Positions 1,536-17,524 of a DNA stretch of 31,886 nucleotides are shown here, in pieces. The notes below the pieces were generated by a model. That model was given only the letters and a program-made list of their open reading frames with translations, searched no databases and was not told the DNA's origin. The translations under genes were made by a program, and so were the position numbers. The DNA is taken from the IMG/VR virus record IMGVR_UViG_3300006847_000024, positions 1 through 31,886 of that record. One strand, given 5' to 3'. Within the stretch, counting starts at the first letter, position 1. The number at the start of each line of letters is the position of its first letter. The stretch comes from a virus.

Positions 1536-1771
1536 CCGACCTAATCCTGTCCTGGCGCCCCGACGGAACCGGTGCGTATGTGTGGTCCAGGTGGCTCGCC
1601 CGGAAGTACCCCGCCAGCAAGAAGAGTGCTGAGGGATGGCGGCTTTATGAAAACGGAGAATTTCGCCTCTCTGCAGCCACGCCGGGAGAGCTCGAGATCT
1701 ACGTGCTGGGCAGGATGGAAGCGGAGCACCGGAAGAACCGCGAGAGGTTCTCGAAAGGCGCGGCCGAATGA
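1532..1771 (+). CDS. Hypothetical protein
   Basis: A 79-residue protein beginning in an ATGA overlap and ending in another ATGA overlap with the nuclease-ATPase gene. It has a Trp/Tyr-rich N-terminal half (ILSWRPDGTGAYVWSRWLA) and a charged helical end (EAEHRKNRERFSKGAAE). No family is recognised. Its position directly before the recombination gene suggests co-translation with it, but no functional link can be read from the sequence. Confidence 0.6.
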   Translation: MTDLILSWRPDGTGAYVWSRWLARKYPASKKSAEGWRLYENGEFRLSAATPGELEIYVLGRMEAEHRKNRERFSKGAAE

Positions 1772-3393
1772 GACGGATGACCGCGTCCCGCATGGACCTG
1801 TACATGCTGTGCTTGCACAGCTTGACCGTCGAAGATTTGCCCCGCGACCTCCCCAACCCAGCGGGCATGCTCGGTACCGAGTTCCACTCCGCGGCCCTCG
1901 GGACCGGGCGCCACAACGTCCTAGACCCCGACAGCGAGGCGGCTTTGTCGGTGATGCTCCCGACGTGGGAACGGAACGGCCGGAAACTGCTCCCGAGCCC
2001 TCGACGGGTCGAGGTGGCCTATGCCATTGGCTGCGACGGCTCCGTACGCGAGCTCGGCGAGAACATCGAGCGGCGCTACGACCAGCATGGGGCGCGCCCG
2101 GACGACGTGACGCTGACCCTCGACGCGCTAGGCACCGCGGAACCACGCACGGCGGACATCAAGACCGGCCGCAAGAAGCTCCCCGCTTCCGAGGCGTGGC
2201 AGCTCCGAGCCGCAGCCGCGGCAGCCCTGCCCAATGGGGGCCGGGTCGAGTTTCACTATGTGGCCCGCAATGGGCGGACAACGGTGGACGGGGCGGACGT
2301 CTCGGCCGACGAGTCGCGCGTCTACCTCGCCCAGATCGTCGACCGCGCCAACCAACTCAAAGACGGCGACACCGCCCCTAACCCGGGCATGCACTGCACC
2401 GAGTTCTGGTGCCCGGCGCGGACCGTCTGCGGCGCCTATCAGACGGCGATAGGCCGAGGATTCGTAATAGAGCAACAACAACAGAAGCAACAACAGGAGA
2501 ACAAGCCAATGGCACGGATGAGCATTCAGAATATAACCAAGGGTCTGATAGAGGAACCTTACCGGGTTTTGCTCTACGGTGTGGAAGGTGTTGGAAAGAG
2601 CACGTTCGGGGCGCAGGCCCCGCGACCCGTGTTCATCTCAAGCGAACGCGGCACGTCACACCTGGACGTGGCTCGCTTCCCGGAAGCCGAAAGCTGGAAC
2701 GACGTGTTCGACGCCGTCATCGATCTTCGCAGCAACAACCACGACCATAAAACCCTGGTGATCGACACACTGGACTGGCTCGAACCGCTGAACTTCAAGT
2801 ATGTTTGCGCCCAGAAGGAGTGGGAAAGCGTGGACAAGCCGGCGTATGGCGCCGGGTACAACGCGGCCCGAGACGAGTGGGTGAGTCTGCTCATCGAGCT
2901 CGACGCGCTACAGCAGAAGCGCCGGGACATGGGAATCGTCATGCTCGCCCACGCGAACGTCCGGAAGCACAAGCACCCGGAACTCGACGAGTTTGACCGT
3001 TTCGAAATGGCTCTCAATCGGGCTTCCGCCAAGCGCATCCGCGAATGGTGCCGCGACGTGCTCTTTGCGGATTACGAGGTGCTTACCTTCAAAGAGGGCC
3101 AGCGCATGCGCACTATCGGCGACGGGGCCCGGTTCATTCACACCAACTGGAAGCCGGCCTTTGACGCAAAGAACCGTCACAACCTTCCGGACAAGTTGCC
3201 GCTGTCGTGGGCTGACTTCGACGCCGCATGTCGCGGCGTGGACCGTGGGGCCGACATGCGGACCGAGATCGAATCCCTGCTCGCCTCTGCCGACCCCGAC
3301 TACCGGGCCAAGGTGGAGCCGTTTCTCAAGGACGCCGACGCAACCAAACTCGCCCAGATTCTCAACAAGGTAAAAGCCAAACTCGCAGCGTGA
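1768..3393 (+). CDS. RecB/Cas4-like nuclease fused to Sak4-like RecA-family ATPase
   Basis: A 541-residue two-domain protein. Residues 1-235 form a PD-(D/E)XK exonuclease: motif I GTEFH (H40), D119 in LTLDAL, the D130-I-K132-TG core, and Q145 in AWQL. Four cysteines (C15 and C210, C215, C221 in HCTEFWC then TVC) match the Fe-S cluster pattern of Cas4/AddB-type nucleases. Residues 248-541 form a P-loop ATPase: Walker A GVEGVGKST (271-279), Walker B TLVIDTLDWLE (D333), then VMLAHANV. This layout is that of Sak4 single-strand annealing proteins. The halves are joined by a Gln-rich linker, residues 236-243. An SSB-like gene follows, the usual Sak4 partner. Probable role: DNA end processing plus strand annealing in phage recombination and replication. 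In most phages these are two genes. Confidence 0.85.
   Translation: MRRMTASRMDLYMLCLHSLTVEDLPRDLPNPAGMLGTEFHSAALGTGRHNVLDPDSEAALSVMLPTWERNGRKLLPSPRRVEVAYAIGCDGSVRELGENIERRYDQHGARPDDVTLTLDALGTAEPRTADIKTGRKKLPASEAWQLRAAAAAALPNGGRVEFHYVARNGRTTVDGADVSADESRVYLAQIVDRANQLKDGDTAPNPGMHCTEFWCPARTVCGAYQTAIGRGFVIEQQQQKQQQENKPMARMSIQNITKGLIEEPYRVLLYGVEGVGKSTFGAQAPRPVFISSERGTSHLDVARFPEAESWNDVFDAVIDLRSNNHDHKTLVIDTLDWLEPLNFKYVCAQKEWESVDKPAYGAGYNAARDEWVSLLIELDALQQKRRDMGIVMLAHANVRKHKHPELDEFDRFEMALNRASAKRIREWCRDVLFADYEVLTFKEGQRMRTIGDGARFIHTNWKPAFDAKNRHNLPDKLPLSWADFDAACRGVDRGADMRTEIESLLASADPDYRAKVEPFLKDADATKLAQILNKVKAKLAA
2495..2511 (+). promoter_or_regulatory. Internal ribosome-binding site and start codon for the ATPase half
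   Basis: AGGAGA at 2495-2500 is followed 9 nt after AGGAG by an in-frame ATG at 2509-2511, codon 248 of the fused gene. The ATG begins MARMSIQ, directly before the conserved ATPase domain, where a separate Sak4 gene would be expected to start. The Gln codons before it are CAACAACAACAG repeats. Both full-length fusion and free ATPase could therefore be made. The site is seen in the sequence; its use is inference. Confidence 0.5.
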
Positions 3394-3406
3394 AAGGAAC
3401 AGAACA

Positions 3407-3892
3407 ATGACCGACAACAACAACATGATCGCAGAGGGACAGTACAGAGCACGCGCCATGACCGGCGAGCTCGGGGAGACGCAGAAGGGCAACGCGCAAG
3501 CCGTTGTGACTTTCCGGCTCGATGGCGGAGAAATCCGCACCTGGTACGGCTCGTTCAGCAACACCACTCTCAAGGACGGCCGCACCGTTGCCGAGTCGAC
3601 GCTGCGGAGTCTCCGCCACGCCGGCTGGGACGGGAAGGAAATCACCGACCTGTCCATGCTCGGCGGGACCGAAGAGAAGCCCGTCTACTGCATGGTCACC
3701 ATCGGCCACGAAAAGGACCTGAACGGCGCGGTGCGGGACCGCATCCGCTGGGTCAACGGTCTCGGCGGTACAGCCAAGCCACTCGGCAACGACGCGAAGA
3801 AAGCCCTCCAGGCGCAACTGAGAGGGCAGATTGCCAAGGTCAACAGCGAGTACAAGGCGCCCGCGGCGGATGGGGACGATCTCCCTTTCTAA
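3407..3892 (+). CDS. SSB-like / DUF669-like single-stranded-DNA-binding protein
   Basis: A 161-residue protein starting at an ATG after GAAAGGAA. The N-terminal 110 residues are beta-rich (GQYRARAMTGELGETQKG, then AVVTFRL, then YCMVTIGHEKD), fitting an OB-like or DUF669-type fold. The C-terminus is a flexible linker ending ADGDDLPF, the acidic hydrophobic tail typical of single-stranded-DNA-binding proteins that recruit partners. It lies 13 nt after the nuclease-ATPase gene. Sak4 annealing proteins are known to depend on SSB, so the pair probably forms one recombination module. Assignment to DUF669 rather than classical SSB is uncertain. Confidence 0.7.
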   Translation: MTDNNNMIAEGQYRARAMTGELGETQKGNAQAVVTFRLDGGEIRTWYGSFSNTTLKDGRTVAESTLRSLRHAGWDGKEITDLSMLGGTEEKPVYCMVTIGHEKDLNGAVRDRIRWVNGLGGTAKPLGNDAKKALQAQLRGQIAKVNSEYKAPAADGDDLPF

Positions 3893-3907
3893 TCTGAAAC
3901 CCCCACA

Positions 3908-3938
3908 CCGGCCTGTATGCTTGGCGGCTGCAGGCCGG
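3908..3938 (+). terminator. 8-bp hairpin after the SSB-like gene
   Basis: CCGGCCTG at 3908-3915 is the exact reverse complement of CAGGCCGG at 3931-3938, with a 15-nt loop. It sits in the 62-nt gap between the SSB-like stop and the next small gene. No U-tract follows; instead GAGAGGAG supplies the next Shine-Dalgarno. It may be an attenuator, an mRNA stability element or a weak terminator separating the recombination genes from the block downstream. Confidence 0.35.
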
Positions 3939-3954
3939 GAGAGGAGCACCCCAC

Positions 3955-4128
3955 GTGACCCACCAACAACTCAATCACCTCCACTTGCTAGCCGATTGGC
4001 TCGCCGAACTCGCCGAGACCTCACGTGTCGCTCCGGCGGTGCCGATCGGCAGGTTCGCCGGGCGGCTACCGTTCGAGGCGGAGAGGCTGCGGGAGATTGT
4101 GGCGCAGGCTGAGGAGGAGAAGCCGTGA
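3955..4128 (+). CDS. Small hypothetical protein (57 residues)
   Basis: A GTG at 3955, preceded by GAGAGGAG, opens a 57-residue frame that ends in the GTGA overlap with the DUF6197-like gene at 4125. The protein starts MTHQQLNHLHLLADWLAEL and ends AERLREIVAQAEEEKP, mostly amphipathic helix. Its last codons GAGGAGGAGAAG are the next gene's Shine-Dalgarno, the same junction as elsewhere in this arm. No family is recognised. The perfect fit between neighbours supports it as a real gene. Confidence 0.6.
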   Translation: MTHQQLNHLHLLADWLAELAETSRVAPAVPIGRFAGRLPFEAERLREIVAQAEEEKP

Positions 4129-4430
4129 CCCGCCCCTCTGACATCCTGCGGGCGGCGAGGGGGTTGATTGCGGAGCCTGGACACTGGGCACAGGGCGCAT
4201 CTCGTGTTGGCGTAGCGGTGTGCGCCGCGGAAGCTATCGATAGCTCTGTTGGCAGAGACTACGACGCCATTGACGTGGCGTATCGGTATCTCAAGCGCAT
4301 CATCGGTGCAGACCCTGGAGTAGAAGGGTTCATCTCTTCTTGGAACGACGCCCCCGAGCGCACCCACGCCGAGGTGCTCGCAGCCTTCGACGCCGCCATC
4401 GCCCTAGCCGAACGCGAGGAGAAGCCATGA
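4125..4430 (+). CDS. DUF6197-like protein, second copy
   Basis: A 101-residue protein starting at GTG in a GTGA overlap. It is complete and aligns along its length with the truncated gene at the window start: ARGLIAEPGHWAQGA at the N-terminus and SWNDAPERTHAEVLAAFDAA at the C-terminus. The central AVCAAEAI corresponds to the CAxGAL region of DUF6197 proteins. The two copies lie on either side of the recombination genes and probably arose by duplication or from separate acquisitions. It ends EREEKP, encoded by a sequence that is also the next gene's ribosome-binding site. Function is unknown. Confidence 0.75.
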   Translation: MTRPSDILRAARGLIAEPGHWAQGASRVGVAVCAAEAIDSSVGRDYDAIDVAYRYLKRIIGADPGVEGFISSWNDAPERTHAEVLAAFDAAIALAEREEKP

Positions 4431-4633
4431 CCCGCCAGCCGAAGCGACCGCCGCGCACCGTCTATGTTGTGGCCTGGCACGGAGTCGGGCGCGGGCAATC
4501 GTTCACGAACCGCCGGTACGCCCAGGAGCGCTTCGACGAGTTGAGCCAGAACCAGTTCACCGCGGACATGTCGCTGATGCTGAACCGCTACGAGCTCTCC
4601 GCCCCCAAGCCAAAAAGAAAGGCCAAGCGATGA
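4427..4633 (+). CDS. Small basic hypothetical protein
   Basis: A 68-residue protein. The frame is open further upstream, but the ATG at 4427 in the ATGA overlap, after GAGGAGAAG, is the only start consistent with its neighbours. The N-terminus is basic (MTRQPKRPPRTVYVVAWHG), the middle reads RRYAQERFDELSQNQF, and the end is a Lys-rich tail (PKPKRKAKR). The layout suggests a small nucleic-acid-associated protein, but no family is recognised. It overlaps the next gene by ATGA. Confidence 0.6.
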   Translation: MTRQPKRPPRTVYVVAWHGVGRGQSFTNRRYAQERFDELSQNQFTADMSLMLNRYELSAPKPKRKAKR

Positions 4634-4956
4634 CCCGGTACCAATACACGTCAGAGATGCAAGAGATCAGCGGCTTCGGCGGTGGCTACGAAGACATGTG
4701 CCGTCAGATGGTGGTCGCCGGCTGCGTGTGGCTCGATGCGCATCCGGAAGCCGACCCCAAGTTCCACGGGTTCAAAGGAATCTACGGCATCATCGATGAG
4801 GACAACGAAGACGCTAAGGAGCTAACGAAGGCCATCGTCGCGCCGTGCAATGGCGACTGCACCGGCGCCATGCACCAAGCGGCAGTCTCTCACGTTCTGT
4901 TCATCCGCAAAAACGGTTGGGACAAGTACGTCGAAGAGATGAGTGAGAAGCGATGA
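4630..4956 (+). CDS. Conserved phage hypothetical protein
   Basis: A 108-residue soluble protein starting in an ATGA overlap. Recognisable stretches are QEISGFGGGYEDMCRQMV near the N-terminus, CVWLDAHP, and CTGAMHQAAVSHVLFIRKNG near the C-terminus. I recall similar strings in hypothetical proteins of other phages, but no function is attached. It has two Cys near residues 73-77 and no membrane segment. Downstream, 4953-4979 holds only an 8-codon mini-frame before the next gene. Confidence 0.65.
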   Translation: MTRYQYTSEMQEISGFGGGYEDMCRQMVVAGCVWLDAHPEADPKFHGFKGIYGIIDEDNEDAKELTKAIVAPCNGDCTGAMHQAAVSHVLFIRKNGWDKYVEEMSEKR

Positions 4957-4987
4957 CCCAGCCGATGAGCAGAAAGTAAGGTTAGAG

Positions 4988-5260
4988 ATGGGCGAGTATT
5001 GGAAGCCGATAAACGTCACGAAAAAAGAGTATGTTCACCCGCACGACCTGGACTGTGGTCTCAAGCTCGGTGAGTGGCACTACCCCGGGTCACCTGTACA
5101 CAAGCGAATTGATGAGCTCATTGAGCACCGCGAGTGGTCAGAAGATGATCTGATTGTTATTGCCAGCGACTACGGCGGCCTCATGCCGATGCACGGCACC
5201 GGTGAGGCTCCCGAAGAGCTCTACGAACTCGCGACTGAGACATACCGCAATGTGTCCTGA
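4988..5260 (+). CDS. Hypothetical protein
   Basis: A 90-residue acidic protein. The frame is open from 4943, but the ATG at 4988 is preferred because AAGG at 4978-4981 lies 6 nt upstream and the earlier part overlaps the previous gene in another frame. It begins MGEYWKPINVTKKEYVHPHD and contains an acidic helix (HREWSEDDLIVIASDYGG). No family is recognised. Its final codons overlap the ATG of the next gene. Confidence 0.6.
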   Translation: MGEYWKPINVTKKEYVHPHDLDCGLKLGEWHYPGSPVHKRIDELIEHREWSEDDLIVIASDYGGLMPMHGTGEAPEELYELATETYRNVS

Positions 5261-5522
5261 CACCCGGCCGATGAGCGAGGGGGAGTTGGCGGAGCTTGAA
5301 GACTGGGGCCGCGGCATGTTCCGCGCGGCTAGGCTGGTCACCGAAGTCCGCCGCCTCCAAGCCGAGCGCGACCGGCTGCTCACCTACAACGCAGAGCTAG
5401 CATCCGCCCTGAGCAGGCACACGGAGTGCTCCTGGGTGGGGTGTGATGGCGGCTGCCCAGGTTGTCAGGCGGCGGCACTGCTAGCCCGCGCCGCCGTCGC
5501 TGCTGCCGAGGGGGAGAAGTGA
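5250..5522 (+). CDS. Coiled-coil protein with C-terminal cysteine cluster
   Basis: A 90-residue protein if started at ATG 5250; ATG 5271 is an in-frame alternative that would begin MSEGELAELEDW. The middle is a helical coiled-coil segment (VTEVRRLQAERDRLLTYNAELASAL) of the kind common in small phage proteins. After it comes CSWVGCDGGCPGCQAAALLA, a four-cysteine CxxC-type cluster. The C-terminus is Ala-rich and ends EGEK, encoded by GAGGGGGAGAAG. The start is not well decided by the sequence. Confidence 0.55.
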   Translation: MCPDTRPMSEGELAELEDWGRGMFRAARLVTEVRRLQAERDRLLTYNAELASALSRHTECSWVGCDGGCPGCQAAALLARAAVAAAEGEK

Positions 5523-5746
5523 CCAGTCCCTATCGGACGCCAACACCCGACCCGGGACCGCCTCTCCCCTCCTTTGAATCAGCGGACACCTGCATCAAGT
5601 GCCGCCGCAAGTGGAGCCATCCGAGCAAGTTCTGTAAGGGCACGTTCAAGTTTAGTGACAAGCCCTGCCGCTTTTCAAGCCAGGAGCACATGCACGTTGA
5701 GTGCACCTGTGGCTACACATGGGCCGTGAGATGTCTCGATGCCTGA
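5519..5746 (+). CDS. Zinc-ribbon-like small protein
   Basis: A 75-residue protein starting at GTG 5519 in a GTGA overlap after GGGGGAGAAG; a longer frame upstream lies inside the previous gene. Cysteines form two pairs typical of a zinc ribbon: CIKCRRKW at about residues 26-29 and CTCGYTWAVRC near the C-terminus, with two further Cys between. The N-terminus is Pro-rich (TPTPDPGPPLPSF). The product is probably metal-binding; the partner is unknown. Confidence 0.65.
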   Translation: MTSPYRTPTPDPGPPLPSFESADTCIKCRRKWSHPSKFCKGTFKFSDKPCRFSSQEHMHVECTCGYTWAVRCLDA

Positions 5747-5924
5747 CGAACCCCTCCTCTCCCTCCGCGCCCGCTACTCCCGCCCCGTCCCCGCGGTAGG
5801 CCACGCTTGGGAGCCGGGCCTCCCCGCCGCGGAGACCCACTGCGTCAACTGCGGCGAGCCGTACAGTCCCGACGTCGCGCCGTGCCCGGAAAGCAATTGG
5901 GGGAAGGAGAGCGGTGATGGGTGA
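5739..5924 (+). CDS. Small protein with CxxC motif
   Basis: A 61-residue protein starting at ATG 5739, overlapping the previous gene by 8 nt. A single CVNCGEPY pair and a later Cys (APCPES) may bind metal together. The rest is Pro/Arg-rich (RARYSRPVPAVGHAWEPGLP). No family is recognised. The Shine-Dalgarno for the following long gene (GGGAAGGAGA) is encoded in its C-terminal codons. Confidence 0.55.
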   Translation: MPDEPLLSLRARYSRPVPAVGHAWEPGLPAAETHCVNCGEPYSPDVAPCPESNWGKESGDG

Positions 5925-7290
5925 CCTAGTAGTGCTGTGCCCGATATTCTGCTGCGCGCGAACGGGAAACCCGTGCGGCACCGACACCATGGTTGTCGGC
6001 GGCGAGTGCGACTGTATTCCGTGTCGTCAGGAGCGCTACGTGCGAGCTGCCGAGCAAGCCAACAAGCGCGTCGCGCAAGCCCTGCGCTCAGCCCGATCCG
6101 AGTGCAACGAGCTTCGCGGCGAGTTGAGTGTGGCGCAGCATCTGCTTCGCGAGTGCCTACCGTACGTGGAACAGCTCACGCCTGGCATGTCGGTAGTAAC
6201 CGGCAAGCAGTCGCTCACGCTGAGCCAAGCGATCCGCGCCGCAGCCCGCGCCACCCGGGGGCAGACCGAGCCCAAGCCCACCCCGCAGCCGTCTCCGCAG
6301 CTCTACTCCTGCTTTTGGTGCGGCACGGAGGGAGTGCCGGAGAGCGGCGCTGGTCACACGTGTCAGGGCACGCTGGCGCACGGTCCCGAGCTTCGCGCGA
6401 AAACACAGCAGCCGTCCGAGCGCAAGCGGCGCTGCGAGCATGGTTACTTCGATTGCGCCGGGTGCAATTGGGTAGACGGCCGGCCCGGCAAAGCACAGCA
6501 GCCGGACGCGGGGCCGTGGGAGTTTGAAGGCGTCAGCAAAAAAGGCGAGCACGACGATCGCATTGACGCATTCATGCGCGACGACGGGTGCATTGCCGTA
6601 GCCGTACGCCAAGATGGCAGGCTGTCAGGGGTGGCTCTCGAGAGGACGGCCGCGCGACGCTTGCGCGATTGCTTGTCCACGCTGATAGCCGACGAGCCCG
6701 CCTCCCCCCGGGCAGCGGAAGCCCGGCCGGTCGAGTCTGCCAAGCAGCTACGTGAGCGCCTGGGATTCCCGGAGCTGTCCGAAGAGCAGCAGCAGGCCAA
6801 TCTCCGGGCAGCGGAAGGCGCGGGGGGGTGGGGGCGCGCCGCCATCGGCACAGTCGATGATCTGCGCCATTGCTGTGCCGAAGCAATCGGGACGCCGGTA
6901 GAAACTGCACCGGGACTTGATGCATGTGTCTACGCCGTGTGTGCACACCTGCGATCAGAGAGAATCCGCGCAGAGGCGGCGGAGGCGAGGGTTCGGAGCT
7001 GGGAGCCGATTATCGCCGTCAGCCTCGAGATCATGTCCAAGGCCGCCGACGACGGCACGCTGGCGTTCGCGCGCAAAGAAGACGTGAACGAGCTCTCGAT
7101 GCGCTGGCAAGAGCTGGTGCGCGGGCTGCCGCGCGAGCAGCGGCCCGAGCGTAAGGCCCACACCTGCAACGCGATTATTGACGACGGCGGAAGGTTTTGC
7201 GGCGAACCCGCTACTTGGTGGAATCAGCGCTTTGCGCGTTGTGAGTTGCATAGGAATGCTCGGCTAGAGCAGCGGCCGGGGGACACATGA
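5917..7290 (+). CDS. Mosaic multi-cysteine protein of unknown function
   Basis: A 457-residue protein; AAGGAGA at 5904-5910 supports ATG 5917 over the in-frame GTG at 5914. It looks modular. The first 40 residues hold seven Cys (CCARTGNPC, then CDCIPC). A helical segment follows to about residue 110. A CFWCGTEGVP knuckle lies near 133 and CEHGYFDCAGC near 175. A small alpha/beta block (GCIAVAVRQDGRLSGVALE) sits at about 230-250. The last third is helical and ends in HTCNAIIDDGGRFCGEP and RCELHRN, another Cys/His zinc site. No family is recognised. The composition suggests repeated fusion of small zinc proteins like those encoded just upstream. Confidence 0.7.
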   Translation: MGDLVVLCPIFCCARTGNPCGTDTMVVGGECDCIPCRQERYVRAAEQANKRVAQALRSARSECNELRGELSVAQHLLRECLPYVEQLTPGMSVVTGKQSLTLSQAIRAAARATRGQTEPKPTPQPSPQLYSCFWCGTEGVPESGAGHTCQGTLAHGPELRAKTQQPSERKRRCEHGYFDCAGCNWVDGRPGKAQQPDAGPWEFEGVSKKGEHDDRIDAFMRDDGCIAVAVRQDGRLSGVALERTAARRLRDCLSTLIADEPASPRAAEARPVESAKQLRERLGFPELSEEQQQANLRAAEGAGGWGRAAIGTVDDLRHCCAEAIGTPVETAPGLDACVYAVCAHLRSERIRAEAAEARVRSWEPIIAVSLEIMSKAADDGTLAFARKEDVNELSMRWQELVRGLPREQRPERKAHTCNAIIDDGGRFCGEPATWWNQRFARCELHRNARLEQRPGDT

Positions 7291-7937: not shown

Positions 7938-8460
7938 TTACCACCCTAAACGGCCGCCTCACGCCCACACACGACGCCGCACACGTCTCGAGCACATTCC
8001 TTACCCGCCTCTCCGGCGGTATCTTCATGTTGCGAGTCGCGTGCAGCGCCCCAAACGCGGTTAGCAGTCCAACGCCGGCCGCGACGAATGGCCACGTGAT
8101 GCGCGTGACGGACAGCGCGCCGTCGATGTAGTAGAGCCGACCCCGAAGCCCCACGATCGCCTCGCTTTCCTCGATTGTGTCGTCCGCCCATTGTTCCGTT
8201 AGCGCCTTGCGGAACATCATTGGAAACAGCGCCCTAACCGCTTCCTCTCCGGTCCCGAGCTCGGGTAGCTTCGGCAGCTCGGTGTGGTGACGTAGAACGT
8301 CGCAATACAGGTTTGATCCTGCCGCCCCAAGCGCCCACTCGCCGCTAATCCAAACCTTGGAGTCGGCTAGCGTGACCTCCTGGTCGTCGCCGATGGTAGC
8401 GGCCGAGTCTCCGCCGAGCCAGACGCGGCCGCGGTTCGAGACGGCGACTAGGGCGGTCAC
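7930..8460 (-). CDS. Proteasome-like Ntn hydrolase
   Basis: A 176-residue protein. The frame is open upstream, but GTG 8460 in a GTGA overlap places Thr directly after the initiator Met, as needed for an N-terminal nucleophile. Numbering that Thr as 1, the motif is TALVAVSNRGRVWLGGDS with Asp17, then Lys34 in DSKVW, then GEWALGAAGS. This matches the T1, D17, K33 layout of proteasome beta and HslV subunits. The C-terminal AAGVGLLTAFGALHATR and later GVRRPF match phage members of the superfamily. It is probably a self-processing peptidase or amidohydrolase. No ATPase unfoldase gene is adjacent. Confidence 0.8.
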   Translation of the reverse strand: MTALVAVSNRGRVWLGGDSAATIGDDQEVTLADSKVWISGEWALGAAGSNLYCDVLRHHTELPKLPELGTGEEAVRALFPMMFRKALTEQWADDTIEESEAIVGLRGRLYYIDGALSVTRITWPFVAAGVGLLTAFGALHATRNMKIPPERRVRNVLETCAASCVGVRRPFRVVSV

Positions 8461-9554
8461 TGGATCACCATCCCGTCCACAATCAGTCGTCCATTGATAA
8501 TCGGTAGAGCTGTCGCCCAGCCGCACCCGGTCTCGTCCTCCACAACCCAGCCGATAGCGTGTTGCCATTCTCGCGTTTGCTGAGGCTTGCTACCGTAGTC
8601 AATCTTTGACAGGTCTCCGCCCCATCCAACGCTAACCGCTACGTGCTTGTCGCCCTCGACGTTGCCGCTGTAACTAACACCCGCGTGATGAGAGTGACCC
8701 ACAACGATGTTGTTTCCGAAAGCGTTTAGGCTTGCCCGCGTAGCGTTTACGCCGCACGGTCCGACGGTATGTGTAAAGGCAAACTTACCTATTTTGATCC
8801 ATTCCTTATACGGTACCCACTCAATGCCACGCTCTCGCAGATTCATGTATTCTGGAATTGTTGGAATGTATCCATATAGTGCCGGCGACTTGTCTAGAAT
8901 ATGCCGGTCGAGCCTCTGCTCATGATTGCCCTCTGTCCAGATGATTCGTGGCACACGCAGCGAGCACAGCCTGTCGAGTTCTCTAACCGCTTCGTCGACC
9001 TCGTCCTTGAGTTGAGTTTTGCGGCCAGGCGTCTTCGGAAAGTTCGAGATTGTGTAGCAGTCGAGAAAGTCCCCGATGATGACTACAACGTCGGGACGTA
9101 GGTCCCGGACCGCGTTGAGCATGACACTCCACACGACCGCGTCCGCATAAGGGTGGTGCATGTCGGGGATAACTAGAATCCGGGTCAGCCCCGGCTTTGG
9201 CGCTGTCACAACCGGACGAGGGCGCGCTACCAACTCCGAACTCAACTCACTAAACGTCGGTCCATTTACATTTGGGTTTACATTCCGTATCGTTTCCACC
9301 GGCGGAACTAACGGGGAATGTCTTACAAACGACGAAACGCCCGACCCCACGTAGGGATCGGGCGACATGTGCTTTAGAAAACTGGACGGGGCGTGATGTC
9401 CGCCGCGTCGGAATGCGTCGGCGAGGTTAGCCGCCGTAGCCGTTGGGTGGATACCTAGTGCGTGTATCTCGTCGAGTGCGTCGTTGATCGAGTCGTGGCG
9501 CCGTAGCACCTCGACACACCTCGGAATCAGCGTGGACCACTGGTAACGCGGCAT
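8457..9554 (-). CDS. Calcineurin-like metallophosphoesterase
   Basis: A 365-residue protein. GGAGGTG (9561-9567) lies 6 nt from ATG 9554; an in-frame GTG at 9563 is inside that ribosome-binding site. All metal-site motifs are present: D131-x-H133 in IPDMHHP, GD162FLD, GN210H211E, H262 in FTHT, and GH287SH289H. The N-terminal 120 residues are outside the catalytic domain; the first 55 look helical, possibly a helix-turn-helix (INDALDEIHALGIHP). Family members hydrolyse phosphomonoesters or diesters, including nucleic acids and cyclic nucleotides; the substrate here cannot be read from sequence. Many phages carry such genes. It overlaps the Ntn-hydrolase gene by GTGA. Confidence 0.85.
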   Translation of the reverse strand: MPRYQWSTLIPRCVEVLRRHDSINDALDEIHALGIHPTATAANLADAFRRGGHHAPSSFLKHMSPDPYVGSGVSSFVRHSPLVPPVETIRNVNPNVNGPTFSELSSELVARPRPVVTAPKPGLTRILVIPDMHHPYADAVVWSVMLNAVRDLRPDVVVIIGDFLDCYTISNFPKTPGRKTQLKDEVDEAVRELDRLCSLRVPRIIWTEGNHEQRLDRHILDKSPALYGYIPTIPEYMNLRERGIEWVPYKEWIKIGKFAFTHTVGPCGVNATRASLNAFGNNIVVGHSHHAGVSYSGNVEGDKHVAVSVGWGGDLSKIDYGSKPQQTREWQHAIGWVVEDETGCGWATALPIINGRLIVDGMVIQ

Positions 9555-9574
9555 CCGACACACCTCCGGTTAGA

Positions 9575-9644
9575 GCCGCCCCACGGTTCTGCCCCGTGAT
9601 TACTCGGGTACAGGCCGAGGGTACTGCTGTTGTACTAGAGCGGC
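9575..9644 (-). ncRNA. tRNA-like cloverleaf between two cistrons
   Basis: Read 5'->3' on the - strand, 70 nt pair as: acceptor GCCGCTC/GGGCGGC (7 bp, one U-G), spacer TA, 4-bp arm GTAC/GTAC with 7-nt loop AACAGCA, one C, 5-bp arm CTCGG/CCGAG with 7-nt loop CCTGTAC, 4-nt variable TAAT, 5-bp arm CACGG/CCGTG with 7-nt loop GGCAGAA. Every length is that of a tRNA, and the middle loop would read anticodon UGU (Thr). U8, A14, A21 and A37 fit. However G18-G19, U33 and the TTC of the T-loop are absent and no CCA is encoded. It starts 1 nt after the stop at 9646 and ends 7 nt before the next Shine-Dalgarno. It may be a divergent tRNA, a tRNA mimic or an RNA-processing signal. Confidence 0.45.
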
Positions 9645-9645
9645 T

Positions 9646-10077
9646 TTACTTGTTACGAAGTAAGTAAGTGACGATCCCGACGATAAGCGGAACCAAGAAC
9701 GCGGCTAGCGCTATGGCTCCTTTGAGTTTCGACAGCTCGGTTGTGTACGCGAGCTTGATGTCAGATAGCTGCTGACCCCACCTCAGCTCTCGGCTAAAGT
9801 CTTTCTCTTGAGCCAGCTTCTGGTGTGTGTGGAACTCGTCGACGTGCTTGGTGTGTGCCGCGTCGAGTTTCTCGAAACGCTTTAGGTTCGCCTCAATCCG
9901 CTGCGAGTGGTTCGCGAGCCTATCTTCATGGTGAGATTGGATAAGCTCGATGTTGGCAACCGCGTCCGGAAGTTTCTCCGGCCTTACCGCTTGGAACCGG
10001 GAGCTCGTCGAGGTTGCGGGGGCGCGGCGCGGCGGAGGTGGCCTCGGTATGGACGGCGGGTTTGACGAGCCATTCAC
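9646..10077 (-). CDS. Coiled-coil protein with C-terminal membrane anchor
   Basis: A 143-residue protein starting at GTG 10077 in a GTGA overlap. Residues 1-35 are Pro/Ser-rich and probably disordered. Residues 37-115 form a long charged helix (ANIELIQSHHEDRLANHSQR and onward), likely a coiled coil. Residues 119-140 are a transmembrane segment (GAIALAAFLVPLIVGIVTYL) followed by RNK. Its place after the lysins suggests a role in lysis or envelope disruption. A tail-anchored spanin-like or holin-accessory role is possible but unproven. Confidence 0.65.
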   Translation of the reverse strand: MNGSSNPPSIPRPPPPRRAPATSTSSRFQAVRPEKLPDAVANIELIQSHHEDRLANHSQRIEANLKRFEKLDAAHTKHVDEFHTHQKLAQEKDFSRELRWGQQLSDIKLAYTTELSKLKGAIALAAFLVPLIVGIVTYLLRNK

Positions 10078-10373
10078 GCGGCCTCGTCCGGGGGAGGCAT
10101 CGGCGTACCGCCGGGCGGTGTGATGCTGCGGCGGAGCTGGCGAATTTCGGCTTCGGCATTTTCGACGCGCTTGTCGAGCAGGCTAACCTTGGTGTTTAGC
10201 CCGCGGTAGTAGTTGATCGCGTCGTTGACGTCGGCACCGATAGACCGAAGCTCGTTGCGTACGGCGGTCAGCGTCCTATCGATTCGATCGTCTCGGCTGT
10301 CAACGATGCCCTGGACTCTGTCTAGCAACTCCGTTACCCAAGACGGCGCCCCCGGTATGTCGTGTCCGTTCAC
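10074..10373 (-). CDS. Small coiled-coil protein
   Basis: A 99-residue protein. GTG 10373 is chosen because AAAGGA precedes it and it overlaps the upstream stop; a longer frame reaches 10421 inside the lysin gene. Most of the protein is a charged helix with heptad-like spacing (LLDRVQGIVDSRDDRIDRTL, then TKVSLLDKRVENAEAEIRQL). It ends in a Pro-rich tail (PPGGTPMPPPDEAA). No signal or membrane segment is seen. It may pair with the coiled-coil membrane protein encoded next; this is inference from adjacency and composition. Confidence 0.6.
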   Translation of the reverse strand: MNGHDIPGAPSWVTELLDRVQGIVDSRDDRIDRTLTAVRNELRSIGADVNDAINYYRGLNTKVSLLDKRVENAEAEIRQLRRSITPPGGTPMPPPDEAA

Positions 10374-11131
10374 TGTCTGTCCTTTACCGATGCGTCTCTT
10401 GATGTGACATGCTCGTCCCAATCCACAACCATGCTCGTGAGAACCAGAGACTCGACCTTGTCGCGCAACCAGTCCGGAACCTCAACCTGCATACACTCGG
10501 CTACGTCTAGGCACGTCTGGTCGTCCCAGGCTTCCGTTTCCTCAGCGACACCCCGGGCTACCGGGAGCAGTTTCGCGGTCAACGAAACGACTGCGCGCAT
10601 GTATTTCTCAACGTCGCTCGTAAAGTACCCCAGCGCCTTAATAGCCTTCACGTAGGCGCCGGCATTTCCGGTCAGCGCGTGAGCTAAAGCCGGTCGCCAA
10701 TTTGGCTCGTTGAGAAACCGAATCTTATCCCGGACACCGTCTCCGAGATTTCGGAACGCGCGCATCCGGGTTTGCGGATGCCCGTCGGGGACCGTGTAAA
10801 CCTGACCATCAATGCTGCCGTCGGCCTTCTCTTTGCCCTCGGGTCGGTACCACTCGTAGGCAAGCGAGCCGTCGGGTTGCGGCATGCGTTCGTTTAAACG
10901 TATGCACGTGAAAAGCCCCTCGTACTTGTTGCCGGCCTTCACGTTACCAACGCCGAAGTTCCAGCAGCTCTTCATGTGCCCGGTCTCAAGCGCGCACTGA
11001 GCATGCAGAACCGCCACCGCTTCCGGCTTCGGGTTGACACCGGTGATTACGCTTAGCGCGTGGCGGTATGCGCGCGAGACGTCTACGGGTGAGACCGGGG
11101 TCCGTACGGGCGGTATGTACGAGGCTTTCAC
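10370..11131 (-). CDS. Glucosaminidase-like endolysin
   Basis: A 253-residue protein starting at GTG 11131 in a GTGA overlap. Residues 36-70 contain AVLHAQCALETGHMKSCWNF and GVGNVKAG, the ALETGxGKS and GN-K pattern of lysozyme-superfamily glucosaminidases (GH73-like); Glu49 is the likely catalytic acid. AFRNLGDGVRDKIRFL at about 125-140 and YVKAIKALGYFTSD at about 160-175 fit the rest of such domains. The C-terminal 70 residues have no recognised domain. No signal peptide is seen, so export would need a holin. It should cut glycan strands of the host wall during lysis, working with the peptidase-type lysin just upstream. Confidence 0.75.
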   Translation of the reverse strand: MKASYIPPVRTPVSPVDVSRAYRHALSVITGVNPKPEAVAVLHAQCALETGHMKSCWNFGVGNVKAGNKYEGLFTCIRLNERMPQPDGSLAYEWYRPEGKEKADGSIDGQVYTVPDGHPQTRMRAFRNLGDGVRDKIRFLNEPNWRPALAHALTGNAGAYVKAIKALGYFTSDVEKYMRAVVSLTAKLLPVARGVAEETEAWDDQTCLDVAECMQVEVPDWLRDKVESLVLTSMVVDWDEHVTSRDASVKDRQ

Positions 11132-12565: not shown

Positions 12566-12777
12566 TTGACACCGTCCAGCGCGCGCTTGGACCTCTCGCG
12601 GTCACGTTCCGGCGCCGTCATGGCGCGGCTATGGCTCGGCGGCGGCTTGATGGACGGCATGGGAGGCTCAACCGGCTTGTTGGTCACAAGCGACTTGACG
12701 ACCTCGATGCCGGCCGGGACCAGCACGGAGATCAGCTCTTTGAGGTTGCGATAGCCGCGCTTGATTCCGCCGATCAC
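12562..12777 (-). CDS. Small hypothetical protein with amphipathic N-terminus
   Basis: A 71-residue protein starting at GTG 12777, overlapping the lipoprotein stop by GTGA. The first half (GYRNLKELISVLVPAGIEVV) is moderately hydrophobic and may associate with a membrane. The second half is Pro-rich then basic (PPMPSIKPPPSHSRAM, APERDRERSKRAL). No family is recognised. Position in the lysis region suggests an accessory lysis role, which is inference only. Confidence 0.5.
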   Translation of the reverse strand: MIGGIKRGYRNLKELISVLVPAGIEVVKSLVTNKPVEPPMPSIKPPPSHSRAMTAPERDRERSKRALDGVK

Positions 12778-13358
12778 AGCTCCACCTCTTGACCTTCCGT
12801 CGTCACAACGCGGTTTCCGTAAGCGGGAGGCGCGGCGCGGCTGATACCCTTGTCCTCGGCGAGGATTCGGATGATGGCAAGCGCCGACTTAAGTTCCGGC
12901 GGCACGTCAACCCCGCGAGCCTCGAGCTCTGCGATAATCACCAGCAGTGCCGACGTCGCCTCCGTCGCACGGCGGGTCATGTCCGGTCCCTCGGTCTTGA
13001 TAGACGAGTACCAGACTTCCAGCATCTGGCGAGCTCGTTCCACCGACTCTGCGCGCAACTTATAGTCGTGGGTCTTTTCCCAGTCTTCAACCATCGATTC
13101 CCACGCCTGCATTCCGCACGAACGCCAGTTTTCTCCACACTGTTCTTTGAGGTCCGGGACGATCGTCTTGACCGCGTCGAGGGCCATGTCCGACGCCGTC
13201 CGGTGCTCGCTATCGAGTGTCGCGTCCGCCCACAGCCACACCGTACGCGCCGCCTCGTAGGCGGTCATAACCGGCAGTACCGGAGACTTAGCCTCGGACC
13301 CGCGGCACCCGGATAAAATTACCAATAGGGCGACTAGTAGAAACTTTATTTCGCGCAT
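12774..13358 (-). CDS. Predicted outer-membrane lipoprotein, helical
   Basis: A 194-residue protein. GGAGGT lies 5 nt before ATG 13358, a strong start. The N-terminus MREIKFLLVALLVILSGC is a lipoprotein signal with Cys18 as the lipidation site. The mature part is mostly helical and has two further Cys (EQCGENWRSCG). The gene starts inside the 3' end of the small membrane-protein gene at 13288-13452. A membrane protein followed by an overlapping lipoprotein gene recalls spanin pairs, but here the lipoprotein is long and the partner short, the reverse of the usual proportions. The spanin role is therefore tentative. Confidence 0.65.
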   Translation of the reverse strand: MREIKFLLVALLVILSGCRGSEAKSPVLPVMTAYEAARTVWLWADATLDSEHRTASDMALDAVKTIVPDLKEQCGENWRSCGMQAWESMVEDWEKTHDYKLRAESVERARQMLEVWYSSIKTEGPDMTRRATEATSALLVIIAELEARGVDVPPELKSALAIIRILAEDKGISRAAPPAYGNRVVTTEGQEVEL

Positions 13359-13452
13359 TGTTGACCTCCGCGTAAACCCAAGACGCCACCGTCACCACCG
13401 CGGCGACGGCAACGATTGGGATCCAGAACCTCTCAGCTAGGAGCCTTTTCAC
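13288..13452 (-). CDS. Small single-span membrane protein overlapping the lipoprotein gene
   Basis: GTG 13452 opens a 54-residue frame beginning MKRLLAERFWIPIVAVAAVV and continuing TVASWVYAEVNNARNKVS. This gives one N-terminal transmembrane segment (about residues 10-28) and a polar, basic tail. It overlaps the end of the holin-like gene by 20 nt and the start of the lipoprotein gene by 71 nt in another frame. Its Shine-Dalgarno is weak. Without it, the 74 nt between those genes would be unexplained. Topology (N-in, C-out) fits an inner-membrane spanin subunit, but the outer part is very short. Confidence 0.45.
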   Translation of the reverse strand: MKRLLAERFWIPIVAVAAVVTVASWVYAEVNNARNKVSTSRPIGNFIRVPRVRG

Positions 13453-13759
13453 CGCCGGCACCCATCAAGCGCTTGATAACCGCATGGTGTCCGCCGACCG
13501 CGGCGAGTCCGCCAAACGCGCCCATGGCGGCGTCGCCAACCATGGCGACTAGGTCTCCGCCGCTGGACAGTGCAGCCAACGCCGCGGCAACGAGCACCGC
13601 CGGGAGCCCCTGCCAACGCTGCGGCAGCTTCGCGAACGAGCTCGGGTGAACCTTACGCCACGCAAAGATCAGCGCGCCCACAACGACGGCAAGCAGCGCC
13701 ATGGGGGCCTGGGGGTGAACCGCGGCAAGAAATTCGCGAGCCTGACTAAGGAATTGCAT
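13433..13759 (-). CDS. Holin-like membrane protein
   Basis: A 108-residue protein. The frame extends to 13870, but ATG 13759, preceded by AGGA at 8 nt, begins cleanly after a non-coding gap. Hydrophobic segments lie at about residues 18-35 (QAPMALLAVVVGALIFAW), 51-66 (GLPAVLVAAALAAL) and 70-92 (GDLVAMVGDAAMGAFGGLAA). It ends with a basic HHAVIKRLMG region and a charged tail. Size, two or three membrane spans and position as the first gene of the lysis region fit a holin. Confidence 0.65.
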   Translation of the reverse strand: MQFLSQAREFLAAVHPQAPMALLAVVVGALIFAWRKVHPSSFAKLPQRWQGLPAVLVAAALAALSSGGDLVAMVGDAAMGAFGGLAAVGGHHAVIKRLMGAGGEKAPS

Positions 13760-13790
13760 GGTACTGGTCCTGTTTCGCTTTTGCGGAGAA

Positions 13791-13818
13791 TAAATACAGT
13801 GTGGGCAGCCGCCCCCAA
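13791..13818 (-). promoter_or_regulatory. Possible promoter for the lysis genes
   Basis: On the - strand TATTTA (13796-13791), preceded by TG, is the only AT-rich hexamer in this GC-rich gap. TTGGGG lies 16 nt upstream (13818-13813), so the spacing fits a sigma-70 promoter though both hexamers are poor. It sits between the tail-fibre operon and the holin-like gene. Confidence 0.25.
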
Positions 13819-13894
13819 GAGGACTCACTAGCCGGGGCCGGACGGGAGGTGCGGACGTCGGCCGTCGCAAACTAGTGAGCCCACTGGGGGGTGG
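13809..13894 (-). terminator. Nested inverted repeats between tail and lysis operons
   Basis: An 11-bp stem pairs 13821-13831 with 13872-13882 (CTCACTAG/CTAGTGAG plus three further pairs, one a wobble on the - strand RNA). Outside it, a C-rich tract at 13885-13894 (read on -) can pair with TGGGGGCGG at 13809-13817. The 40-nt loop can itself fold (GGCCGAC with GTC-GGCC and one bulge). There is no U-tract, so a rho-independent terminator is not certain. It fills most of a 139-nt gap with no gene. Confidence 0.4.
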
Positions 13895-13898
13895 TTGT

Positions 13899-14630
13899 TT
13901 AGGCGGTAATCGACGCGCCGTATTTGGCGACCCAAAGCGCGTCTATGTTGGCGTCTTCATCCGCCGTTAGGTCGCGATTGAAAATCCAGAGTTGGCAGAG
14001 CTCGAAGTTTGAGAACGCGCCGTTCGACCACTTGCCAACGAAAAACGACGCCGTCGGGTCGGTATTGGTTGCGTTGCCGTTGGTCCCGGCGTTCGAGCCG
14101 ACTACGAGGTAGTCGCTTGCCTGGTTCGAGTAGCGGACACGGATTCGCTTGTATGTGTTGACCGTAAGCGCGCCGCTGGACGCACCGTCCGCACCGTTGA
14201 AAGCCGTTACCGTCGGCGTACCGGGGCTCTGGTACAGAATCATGCTCTGGACCGGAAACGCGCCGAAGCTCCAGATATTGCGCGTACTGACCCACGTCAC
14301 TTGCCGAAGCACGGCGCGCATAACGGTCGGCTGCGTTCCCGGCGCCGGTCGGTCGAGTGCTGTGTTAACTAAGAAATCGTTGGACCCGTCGAACAGCAGC
14401 GACGGAGTTGAGCTCGGCCCGCCCGTCGTTGTTTTGGACGGTTGATCCGACCCGGTACCCTGAGTCAGCGGAAAGGCGTTGCCCTTCTCGTCGGGCCAGG
14501 TGAAGGTTGCTCCCGGTACGGCGTTGTCGGCAACGTAGCCGGCAACCACGGCGTCCGAGCCGGTGATGCTGAACACGGACGGGACTCCGCCCCCAAACCC
14601 AATCCCGATACCGATTCCGATATGCGTCAT
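13899..14630 (-). CDS. LamG/concanavalin-like lectin domain tail protein
   Basis: A 243-residue protein starting at ATG 14630 in overlap with the tailspike stop. A glycine-rich start (GIGIGIGFGGG) precedes a beta-sandwich-like domain. TPSLLFDGSNDFLV near residue 77 and FELCQLWIFNRDLTADEDA near the C-terminus are hallmarks of LamG/concanavalin-A-like domains. It is probably a receptor-binding or tail-decoration protein, placed last in the fibre operon. A related LamG-type domain occurs in the 611-residue protein at 17524-19359. Confidence 0.7.
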   Translation of the reverse strand: MTHIGIGIGIGFGGGVPSVFSITGSDAVVAGYVADNAVPGATFTWPDEKGNAFPLTQGTGSDQPSKTTTGGPSSTPSLLFDGSNDFLVNTALDRPAPGTQPTVMRAVLRQVTWVSTRNIWSFGAFPVQSMILYQSPGTPTVTAFNGADGASSGALTVNTYKRIRVRYSNQASDYLVVGSNAGTNGNATNTDPTASFFVGKWSNGAFSNFELCQLWIFNRDLTADEDANIDALWVAKYGASITA

Positions 14631-17524
14631 CCGCCGCCGAGCCTCTGGCTTGTTTCGTAGGTAACGGCCCAGCGTCCCGTGATGCTTGCCGACCCGTTGT
14701 TAAGAACCGTCTCGAGCTTTGCGCCGCCCGAGTGGACCCTAACAATCGGCGTCGCGTACCCCGCGTCGGACGGGTCTATTTCCTGGTCAAGCAGGCGCAC
14801 GCCGTCGTAGCCGAACTTTAGTGTGCCGCCGGTTCCGTCGCCCGCCGTCAAGTCAATCTGGCTCACCGAGGCGAAGTATTTCAGGCTCGTCACGATAGCC
14901 GCCGTTTGAGAGACCGAGACGGCCTCGACAACGGCTAATCCGTTAATGTCGACGCCCGTAAACGTTGCGGTTGACGGGGCGTGCGACGGCGTTCCGCCGC
15001 CGGTTGTTACCGTTACGCGCCGCCCATAGGATGCTTGCCGCGCGCCGACCACACCGTCCAGGGCGCCTCCGGAGTATGACTGCGGCGACGCACTTGTCGC
15101 GATCGAAAGTTTGACCGCGTCGTCGTCGGAGCCGACTATTGAGGCGTTGCCTCCGAACCGCTTGGTACTAACGCGAAACTTCCAAGCGCTCCATGTGTCC
15201 GCCGCGCTGTCGGACCGGACTCCCGCCACAACGGTTCCTAGTAGGTTCATCTCGGCGGGAACCGTGAAATCAACGGACACGTCCGGACCGGGAGAGCCGC
15301 TAACGGTTGTCGCCTTGCTGACCTGTCTCGAGTAGCCGTGTTGATTAATGGCGTCCGCGGCAAGCCCCGAGCCGTGCGTAAGCAGGAGTCCCGTCGAGTC
15401 GAGTCGGTACCGTTCGGACGAGCCGCCAAACGTGTCGAAGCTAAACCGCGGCTTGGTCGTCGCGACGTGGCGGTAGTGAATGCCGGCGCCCGGGGTAACC
15501 TCGTTGACGCCCAACATGCTGTTGGTGTCGGTCGTGTCTTGTGAAAAGTAGAGCCCGCCGTAAATCGTCTCGGCGTCGAACACGGTACCGCCGGACAGAG
15601 AGATGTAGTTGTGCCCCCATCGCAGGTGGGAAATCGACTGCGTCGAAACTATCAGCGATGTCGGAGTCCCGCTGTCTCCGTTCGGCGACTGGACCACCAG
15701 GTTTCCGCTTACCTCAAGGACGCCGATCCCGGACGGGAAGTAGCACCGGACCATCGGAATCTTACTGGTGTTGGAGACGAAGTTGTTTCTCCAAGTAACC
15801 AGCGCGGCCGACGAGCCTTGCGCGGAACAGACGTGCGCGCCTCGGCCCGGGTTTTCCGCGGGTCCCGAGTTACCCACGGCGGGCGGGCCGCCTCCGCCCT
15901 CGAAGTAGTTACCGGACCAATGAACGCTTCGGACATTCCGGAGCAAGCAGCAATACTGCGTGCCTTGCGAGAACTCGCAGTCTCTTACCGAGTGGTTGTT
16001 TCCGCTTTCGTGCCAGACGCCGACGGCGAGAACGTGTATCCGGCAACGGTCCATGGAGAACCCGTTGTTCGAATCCTCGAAGCCGAATAGGTAGCTGTTG
16101 CCCGTAATCCAAACGGCCATTTGGGCCGCGTACGGGACTCCGCCGCCCGCCACTCCCGGGTTGTCGCCGGGACCGAAATGGCAATCGTTTATGTTGACGA
16201 GCAACCCGCCGTCGTCGATTACCCCCTTGGACCAGCCGTAAAACAGGCAACGGTCAACGACGAGGTCGCCGCCGCCGGTCGTTCTAATCGCGGCGCCGTT
16301 GTATCCGTTGACGGTCCAGGTGTACGTATCGTTAGCGGTGTACGTGCCGGCCGGGAACGTTACGCGCGCGCCGACTCCCGGGATTACCCTCGCCGTCGTC
16401 GCCGTAGTGATCGCCTGCGACGTGTAGTTCGCCCCGTTGTCAAACGACGCCATGTAAAGCGCCGTGCCGCTAGCCCCGGTGGTCTGTATCTTGAGCTTTA
16501 CCGTCCAGTTGTAGGCGTTGTACGGGTTCCAGTCGACCGTGATGCTAGGCGACGAGCCGGAGCTGGCTATCACCTGTGAGCCACTGTCGGCAATCCCGTT
16601 GCGCGGGCAGTTGGTGACGCTCTTGTTGCGTATGGTTAGGTCGCTAATCCAGACGCGCGTTAGAGACTGGTTCGGCGTGGACTGGCAGACAAGGATTCCG
16701 TCGCCGACTCCGCTTGTGCCGGAAAAGTCAAATACGAGAATCGAACAGAGCCGGGAGGCGCCGCGGATAGACGTGCCGGCCGCAAGCTGACCGTTTGCCC
16801 CGGGTCCCTGGAGCTGGCGAGCTAGCAGATAAGTGCCGGCCGGGATGTAGAGCTCGCCGCCGCCCGCGGCCCCGATAGCCGTCAACGCGGCGGTAAAAGC
16901 GTCGTCGTCGTAGGTAACGCCGTTGCCAACGGCGCCATATTCCCGAACGTCGAACCGTCCGAGGTCGATCCGGTTTCGCCCGCCGACCTTCGAGACCTTG
17001 GCCCCGAAAACCTCTATCTGTAGCTCGGGGGTTACGACGGTACCGGCCCGGTCTCGCAGCGACTGCTGTGCCGCGCCCAGGAGCGGCGTAACGGAGCCGT
17101 CCGAGTGCTTCTCGGCCATGACGCCCAGGTCACTCGAGAAACCAATCGTGCTGCCCTGGTTCGGCGTAGGGATCTGACTGTTGGCAACCGGAAAGAACCG
17201 AAGCGCCCCGGCAAAGCTCGGGTTTTGAACCCGCACGCACCCGATCAGAATATCGTATGTGGTAACGCCGTTGACGATGACGGTGACTAGATACTGTCCC
17301 TCGGCGTCGGGGGTAAACCGAACCGTGTCGCCACTCGTGGCGCTAAGGTTTGACCGCGCGCCGGACCCCGACGGTTTCGAGATAGCCCACGCATACGTTG
17401 TGCCCGTCGGGCTCGTGTTGAGGATAATCTCCTCGGACACGAGATAAGCGGAGACCGTCTTGTTGACCGCCGTGTCGGCGTCAACCATGGTCTTCGTTAT
17501 CGAGTTGGCTTTTATGCCGGCCAC
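14627..17524 (-). CDS. Tailspike with pectate-lyase-like beta-helix
   Basis: A 965-residue protein starting at GTG 17524. Residues 1-150 are an adaptor domain also encoded as a separate protein at 23278-23733 (shared MAGIKANS, KTMVD-x-DTAV and VANSQ/IANSQ-x-PTP). From residue 191, FDVREYGAVGNGVTYDDDAF and GGGELYIPAGTYLL mark the start of a pectate-lyase-3 type right-handed beta-helix, which continues with many Gly/Asn-rich turns to about 600. The last 300 residues are beta-rich and may form the trimer tip. Phage spikes of this type bind and often cleave surface polysaccharide. Catalytic residues cannot be assigned by eye. Confidence 0.85.
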   Translation of the reverse strand: MAGIKANSITKTMVDADTAVNKTVSAYLVSEEIILNTSPTGTTYAWAISKPSGSGARSNLSATSGDTVRFTPDAEGQYLVTVIVNGVTTYDILIGCVRVQNPSFAGALRFFPVANSQIPTPNQGSTIGFSSDLGVMAEKHSDGSVTPLLGAAQQSLRDRAGTVVTPELQIEVFGAKVSKVGGRNRIDLGRFDVREYGAVGNGVTYDDDAFTAALTAIGAAGGGELYIPAGTYLLARQLQGPGANGQLAAGTSIRGASRLCSILVFDFSGTSGVGDGILVCQSTPNQSLTRVWISDLTIRNKSVTNCPRNGIADSGSQVIASSGSSPSITVDWNPYNAYNWTVKLKIQTTGASGTALYMASFDNGANYTSQAITTATTARVIPGVGARVTFPAGTYTANDTYTWTVNGYNGAAIRTTGGGDLVVDRCLFYGWSKGVIDDGGLLVNINDCHFGPGDNPGVAGGGVPYAAQMAVWITGNSYLFGFEDSNNGFSMDRCRIHVLAVGVWHESGNNHSVRDCEFSQGTQYCCLLRNVRSVHWSGNYFEGGGGPPAVGNSGPAENPGRGAHVCSAQGSSAALVTWRNNFVSNTSKIPMVRCYFPSGIGVLEVSGNLVVQSPNGDSGTPTSLIVSTQSISHLRWGHNYISLSGGTVFDAETIYGGLYFSQDTTDTNSMLGVNEVTPGAGIHYRHVATTKPRFSFDTFGGSSERYRLDSTGLLLTHGSGLAADAINQHGYSRQVSKATTVSGSPGPDVSVDFTVPAEMNLLGTVVAGVRSDSAADTWSAWKFRVSTKRFGGNASIVGSDDDAVKLSIATSASPQSYSGGALDGVVGARQASYGRRVTVTTGGGTPSHAPSTATFTGVDINGLAVVEAVSVSQTAAIVTSLKYFASVSQIDLTAGDGTGGTLKFGYDGVRLLDQEIDPSDAGYATPIVRVHSGGAKLETVLNNGSASITGRWAVTYETSQRLGGG

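Follow-up and report, generated by a model that had tools for sequence, protein, structure and literature searches.

A tRNA-Thr(UGU)-like cloverleaf between two lysis-region genes of a tailed phage

Phage-encoded tRNAs are already known, and the altered loops of the element described here are a new variation on them. It has been shown that phage tRNAs can overcome defences that cut tRNAs (PMC11555353), and a proposed function of those with changed anticodon loops is resistance to host tRNA nucleases (PMC10264068). Staphylococcal tRNA-Gly variants, used in cell-wall synthesis, escape EF-Tu via changes in the T arm (described in PMC9976931). In the E. coli thrS translational operator, binding of ThrRS to hairpins of the thrS leader blocks the ribosome (PMC3858243).

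The element lies on a 31.9-kb viral contig, an IMG/VR record, which we analysed over its whole length of 31,886 nt (the window) and whose baseplate and tail genes mark it as a tailed phage. The tRNA-Thr(TGT) of Vibrio phage KVP40 (L116:3404-3476) and the element have in common their cloverleaf dimensions, the UGU anticodon, a Thr-type acceptor and, outside the anticodon, 33 of the 63 positions compared; the 7-nt D loop of the element is also found in several KVP40 tRNAs. Unlike phage elongator tRNAs, the element has no G18, U33, T54, T55 or A58 and is missed by ARAGORN, and it is a single gene in the lysis region and not part of a tRNA cluster. Like the nuclease-resistant phage tRNAs, it combines an altered anticodon loop (at positions 33 and 38 in the element) with an intact anticodon. 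However, those tRNAs were found by ARAGORN and tRNAscan-SE and have recognisable signatures (PMC10264068), whereas the element is also without the elbow. T-arm changes are shared with the staphylococcal non-proteinogenic tRNA-Gly, although that is a cellular gene for another amino acid with a known role in the cell wall (PMC9976931). Finally, the thrS operator and the element are both structured RNAs related to Thr that lie directly before a ribosome-binding site, but the operator is built of bipartite hairpins and controls thrS itself (PMC3858243), whereas the element is a complete cloverleaf.

Geometry and genomic setting of the cloverleaf

Genes from 18 to 7290 of the window are on the plus strand, and the structural and lysis-region genes, from ~31834 down to 7512, are on the minus strand. 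The cloverleaf is on the minus strand, as are both flanking genes, and occupies the spacer that separates a holin-like gene from a phosphoesterase gene. This gap of 91 nt is one of few in the cluster, where most neighbouring genes abut or overlap. The upstream gene (9646-10077, minus strand) is translated into a protein of 143 aa with a long polar region followed by a single C-terminal hydrophobic segment; this holin-like protein has no PHROG match and no Pfam match above the Pfam cut-off. The downstream gene (8457-9554, minus strand; ATG at 9554-9552) encodes a metallophosphoesterase of 365 aa (PF00149, 4.5e-9; phrog_221, 3.8e-35). Its Shine-Dalgarno sequence, GGAGG at 9563-9567, follows the acceptor stem by 7 nt and precedes the ATG by 8 nt, and the element itself starts 1 nt after the TAA stop (9648-9646) of the upstream gene.

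The element is 71 nt long (9574-9644, minus strand), with G1 at 9644 and the discriminator U73 at 9574; CCA is not encoded. Read 5' to 3', it consists of the acceptor strand GCCGCTC (9638-9644), a TA spacer, the D arm GTAC-AACAGCA-GTAC (9621-9635), a single C, the anticodon arm CTCGG-CCTGTAC-CCGAG (9603-9619, with the anticodon UGU at 9612-9610), the variable region TAAT (9599-9602), the T arm CACGG-GGCAGAA-CCGTG (9582-9598) and the second acceptor strand GGGCGGC (9575-9581), which pairs at 7/7 positions with the first. The stems of 7, 4, 5 and 5 pairs are complete, at 21/21 standard pairs (20 Watson-Crick and one U-G), with loops of 7, 7 and 7 nt and spacers of 2, 1 and 4 nt. On recount, the coordinates, arm sizes, loops, spacers and pair count that an earlier note had drawn from the letters alone all proved correct, as did its distances from the cloverleaf to the upstream stop and to the Shine-Dalgarno sequence.

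A complete cloverleaf of this kind is rarely expected by chance. With flexible tRNA dimensions, 400 Markov windows matched in dinucleotide composition give an expectation of 0.0075 cloverleaves at 21/21 per window, and when at most one GU pair is allowed the expectation drops to ~3e-5 per window, by arithmetic from the base composition. None was present in 436 kb of real phage and related sequence, a scan that works, as it recovered a genuine tRNA in contig L008 at 20/21. The cloverleaf is not the predicted minimum-energy fold (-27.5 versus -28.2 kcal/mol, 0.7 above the minimum), the predicted pair probability of the anticodon and T arms is 0.09, and in the wider context folding compares with that of shuffles at z +0.23. 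Because one third of 113 genuine tRNAs fare no better, showing, like the element, at most 11/21 cloverleaf pairs in the predicted minimum, folding energy is uninformative for or against the cloverleaf.

The gap holds no hidden small gene on its minus strand and no promoter that we could find, and the number of terminator-like sites around the junction is at the chance level. The idea of a GTAC-repeat operator found no backing in the window, where GTAC is not enriched and the D-arm and T-arm hairpins are not repeated elsewhere.

tRNA kinship and threonine isotype signal

Catalogues of phage tRNAs are built with finders and pre-filters for which the T-loop motif is an important cue. A standard ARAGORN run did not find the element; with a relaxed threshold, a check that the earlier note had proposed, ARAGORN gave hundreds of junk sites in the window and still left the element unreported in the 400-base junction. 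Neither Rfam cmscan nor a genome search with RF00005 reported it at E<=10 with the Rfam filters on. We give here the results of two covariance models, trained independently of each other, with E-values that the tool itself describes as rough: R1, from 26 KVP40 tRNAs and one viral-contig tRNA, and R2, from 22 tRNAs of an unrelated bacterial genome. In unfiltered cmsearch runs the element was the best match in the window with R1 (28.1 bits, E 7.4e-7; next match 9.7 bits) and also with R2 (25.1 bits, E 2.2e-5; next match 12.6 bits). With default filters, R1 reported nothing at all, which suggests that speed filters, not a low score, hide the element from Rfam. The low scores that the earlier note had forecast thus took the form of misses by ARAGORN, Rfam and filtered Infernal. 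Since all of the filtered searches missed an element with an E-value of ~1e-6 under a full covariance model, counts of remodelled tRNAs in viral genomes may be too low.

For an empirical null we ran R1 unfiltered on ~290 kb of sequence from elsewhere, where the highest score was 15.6 bits. R2 gave one match elsewhere, of 22.3 bits, at 9517-9574 (plus strand) of contig L007, and because this is a genuine 3' half of a tRNA-Gly, scores near 22 bits mark tRNA-derived sequence. As an observation in its own right, this tRNA-Gly(CCC) half, missed by ARAGORN and below the Rfam cut-off, adjoins an integrase gene (9628-10659, minus strand), and the two together are likely a prophage attachment site.

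Much of the tRNA score of the element comes from its stems, and the T loop costs ~12 log-odds bits. Random sequences placed in the same perfect cloverleaf, with GU pairs rare, reach a tRNA log-odds this high at P 3e-4, and under this null the loops outside the T loop are tRNA-like on their own (P ~1e-3). This loop signal is not due to the way in which the site was chosen, because the earlier note picked it by geometry and held the signature bases to be absent.

Conserved positions are matched at 12 of 18 (P 0.006, given a perfect cloverleaf). Kept are T8, A14, A15 with U48, G19, A21, G53-C61, C56, R37 and Y32, so that the tRNA core bases (T8, A14, R15-Y48, A21, G53-C61) are all present; lost are G18 (now A), U33 (C), T54 (G), T55 (G), A58 (G) and Y60. 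The absence of signature bases claimed in the earlier note therefore holds for G18, U33, T54, T55 and A58, but not for T8, A14, G19, A21, G53-C61 and C56. Within the T-loop motif T54 T55 C56 R57 A58, the loop GGCAGAA keeps only C56 and R57, and it resembles random sequence (P 0.63). Judged from the bases present and absent and from known tRNA structure, the tRNA-core contacts 8-14-21, 15-48 (the Levitt pair, between A15 and U48 of the variable region) and 19-56 could form, and the contacts 18-55 and 54-58 and the U-turn could not.

The anticodon UGU specifies Thr (codon ACA). In a comparison of each position of the element outside the anticodon with 105 tRNAs, taken from KVP40 and a number of bacterial genomes, Thr was the closest isotype (mean of 29.2 identities versus 25.7; permutation P 0.0007, an optimistic value since related tRNAs are not independent). 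The acceptor stem alone also favours Thr, at 8.6 of 14 positions versus 5.3 (P <5e-5, again optimistic through the kinship of tRNAs). The best-matching individual tRNA is a Gly(TCC), the Thr signal being a trend across the isotype. In addition, G1-C72, C2-G71, G4-C69, G35 and U36 agree with bacterial Thr identity elements, and G5-C68 does not (PMC9976931). Codon supply offers no obvious motive for carrying the element, because ACA makes up only 12% of the Thr codons in the late genes (77 codons). Taken with the unfiltered covariance scores, the isotype ranking lends good support to the degenerate tRNA-Thr(UGU) that the earlier note had listed as one option, and the element is very probably a late-operon gene, missed by standard finders, that derives from a tRNA-Thr(UGU). 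The two other options of that note, a tRNA mimic processed by RNase P/Z and an element controlling translation of the phosphoesterase, would also fit the location of the cloverleaf.

Origin and possible role of the element

All 21 pairs survive while at least five near-invariant loop bases have changed, which favours a fold under selection; if point changes are independent, the probability that every pair stays intact after 5-8 neutral substitutions is 0.04-0.009. We favour, at a probability of about one half, a remodelled tRNA-Thr(UGU)-like RNA that would be cut from the late mRNA, with its structure conserved by selection and its loops altered. The element would be transcribed within the late lysis-region mRNA. 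A cut by RNase P at 9645/9644 would give an upstream mRNA that ends one base past its stop codon. With its 5' end set by 3' processing of the element near 9574, after U73, the downstream mRNA would retain an intact Shine-Dalgarno sequence and start. The freed 71-nt tRNA-like RNA might then receive CCA, and the element would in this way punctuate the late mRNA with both flanking genes undamaged.

The freed RNA could be charged by ThrRS. Without U33 and the elbow, it would be expected to work poorly in elongation and to be recognised differently by enzymes or nucleases that read those features; the loss of U33, T54, T55 and A58, which would impair a normal elongator tRNA, counts against the remodelled RNA that we favour, as do the missing Rfam match, the low share of ACA codons and the lack of an encoded CCA. 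The altered anticodon loop and elbow could instead serve nuclease resistance or avoidance of the elongation pathway. We propose tentatively, and with less confidence than the remodelled RNA itself, that both the fold and the Thr identity are selected in a chargeable tRNA-Thr(UGU)-like RNA that would act outside normal elongation, as a nuclease-proof substitute, as a decoy or as a clean processing mark between two lysis-region mRNAs. If this is true, such tRNA-like RNAs without elbow and U-turn would form a class that current tRNA finders cannot see.

The alternative that survives best, and that we nevertheless consider less likely, is that a tRNA-Thr(UGU) gene of phage or host, once captured in the late operon, has recently decayed into a functionless pseudogene and lost its loop motifs by drift. 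A pseudogene would fit the covariance scores and the Thr isotype kinship equally well, the lost bases are among those that tRNAs need most, and the T loop looks random. Few events may suffice. Read on the plus strand, the T-arm hairpin becomes CACGG-TTCTGCC-CCGTG, so that a single inversion of the T-arm loop could lie behind most of the T-loop change; this inverted loop scores weakly as a tRNA T loop (P 0.058). However, a pseudogene would be unlikely to keep every pair through at least five near-invariant changes (~0.04-0.01 under neutrality for 5-8 substitutions), and the late operons of the phage are otherwise tightly packed. On these grounds we think a remodelled tRNA-like RNA more likely than a pseudogene, with its conservation read from one sequence.

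A chance cloverleaf in a GC-rich spacer, singled out among many windows, is improbable. The site was indeed selected post hoc from an unknown number of windows, its folding in context is no better than that of shuffles and the cloverleaf competes with other folds. On the other hand, two independent models return E-values of 7e-7 and 2e-5, the loops that geometry did not select are still tRNA-like (P ~1e-3), and the acceptor stem and the anticodon agree on Thr. Least probable of all is a cis-acting mRNA element, in which ThrRS or another tRNA-binding protein would bind the tRNA-Thr-like fold and control translation of the phosphoesterase: the short distance from the acceptor stem to GGAGG, the Thr identity elements and the thrS precedent (PMC3858243) would suit it, but the thrS operator is made of separate hairpins with no full cloverleaf, the accessibility of the phosphoesterase start site (0.41) is ordinary among the 28 genes of the window, and the arrangement occurs in no relative that the searches returned, the junction between a CHAP-domain gene and the metallophosphoesterase downstream of it in MW202627 being only 3 nt.

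Related loci and neighbouring genes

A search of phage DNA with the junction gave no match, and scans of viral contigs with the phosphoesterase, the upstream protein, an HslV-like protein and the endolysin gave no syntenic relative; two matches to the upstream protein were dismissed as a spurious ORF opposite to the strand of the real genes. The baseplate protein led to one related contig, L004 (43% identity), from which both the phosphoesterase and the upstream gene are absent. Among the 69 loci of a phosphoesterase profile search none carried the cloverleaf, and in all the collections searched, from which near-identical records may have been missing, we found neither a second copy nor a homologous junction with the element. 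Loop-anchored pattern searches returned 14 matches, each with at most 11/21 pairs and all attributable to chance. None of 398 bacterial genomes, all from one phylum, contains the D-arm 17-mer, which is therefore not simply a common host D arm.

One candidate for a second copy, at 1660-1735 of contig L051 and 1 nt after a stop, turned out to be a long stem-loop (cloverleaf at -13.9 versus a minimum of -35.5 kcal/mol) and not a tRNA. This strong stem-loop (1658-1740, plus strand) directly follows the stop of a small lipoprotein-like (spanin-like) ORF and lies upstream of a phosphoesterase gene.

The phosphoesterase next to the element carries an N-terminal extension of ~110 residues (residues 1-110; gene at 8457-9554, minus strand) that is absent from four other aligned phage homologues. 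The 366-aa homologue of MW202627 (L010 2914-4014), which adjoins the CHAP-domain gene, also has an N-terminal extension.

Elsewhere in the window, the 74-nt gap between genes 13433-13870 and 12774-13358 holds a 14-pair hairpin (13384-13414, minus strand) that resembles a terminator and has a T-rich tail. A 541-aa protein (1768-3393, plus strand) matches the exonuclease family phrog_69 over residues 3-242 and the Sak4-like single-strand annealing protein phrog_124 over residues 240-499, and is apparently an exonuclease-recombinase fusion. Finally, the N-terminal 155 residues of the tail-spike protein (14627-17524, minus strand) and the whole of a 151-aa protein (23278-23733, minus strand) both match L004 15290-15757, and this shared match suggests a duplicated tail-attachment domain.
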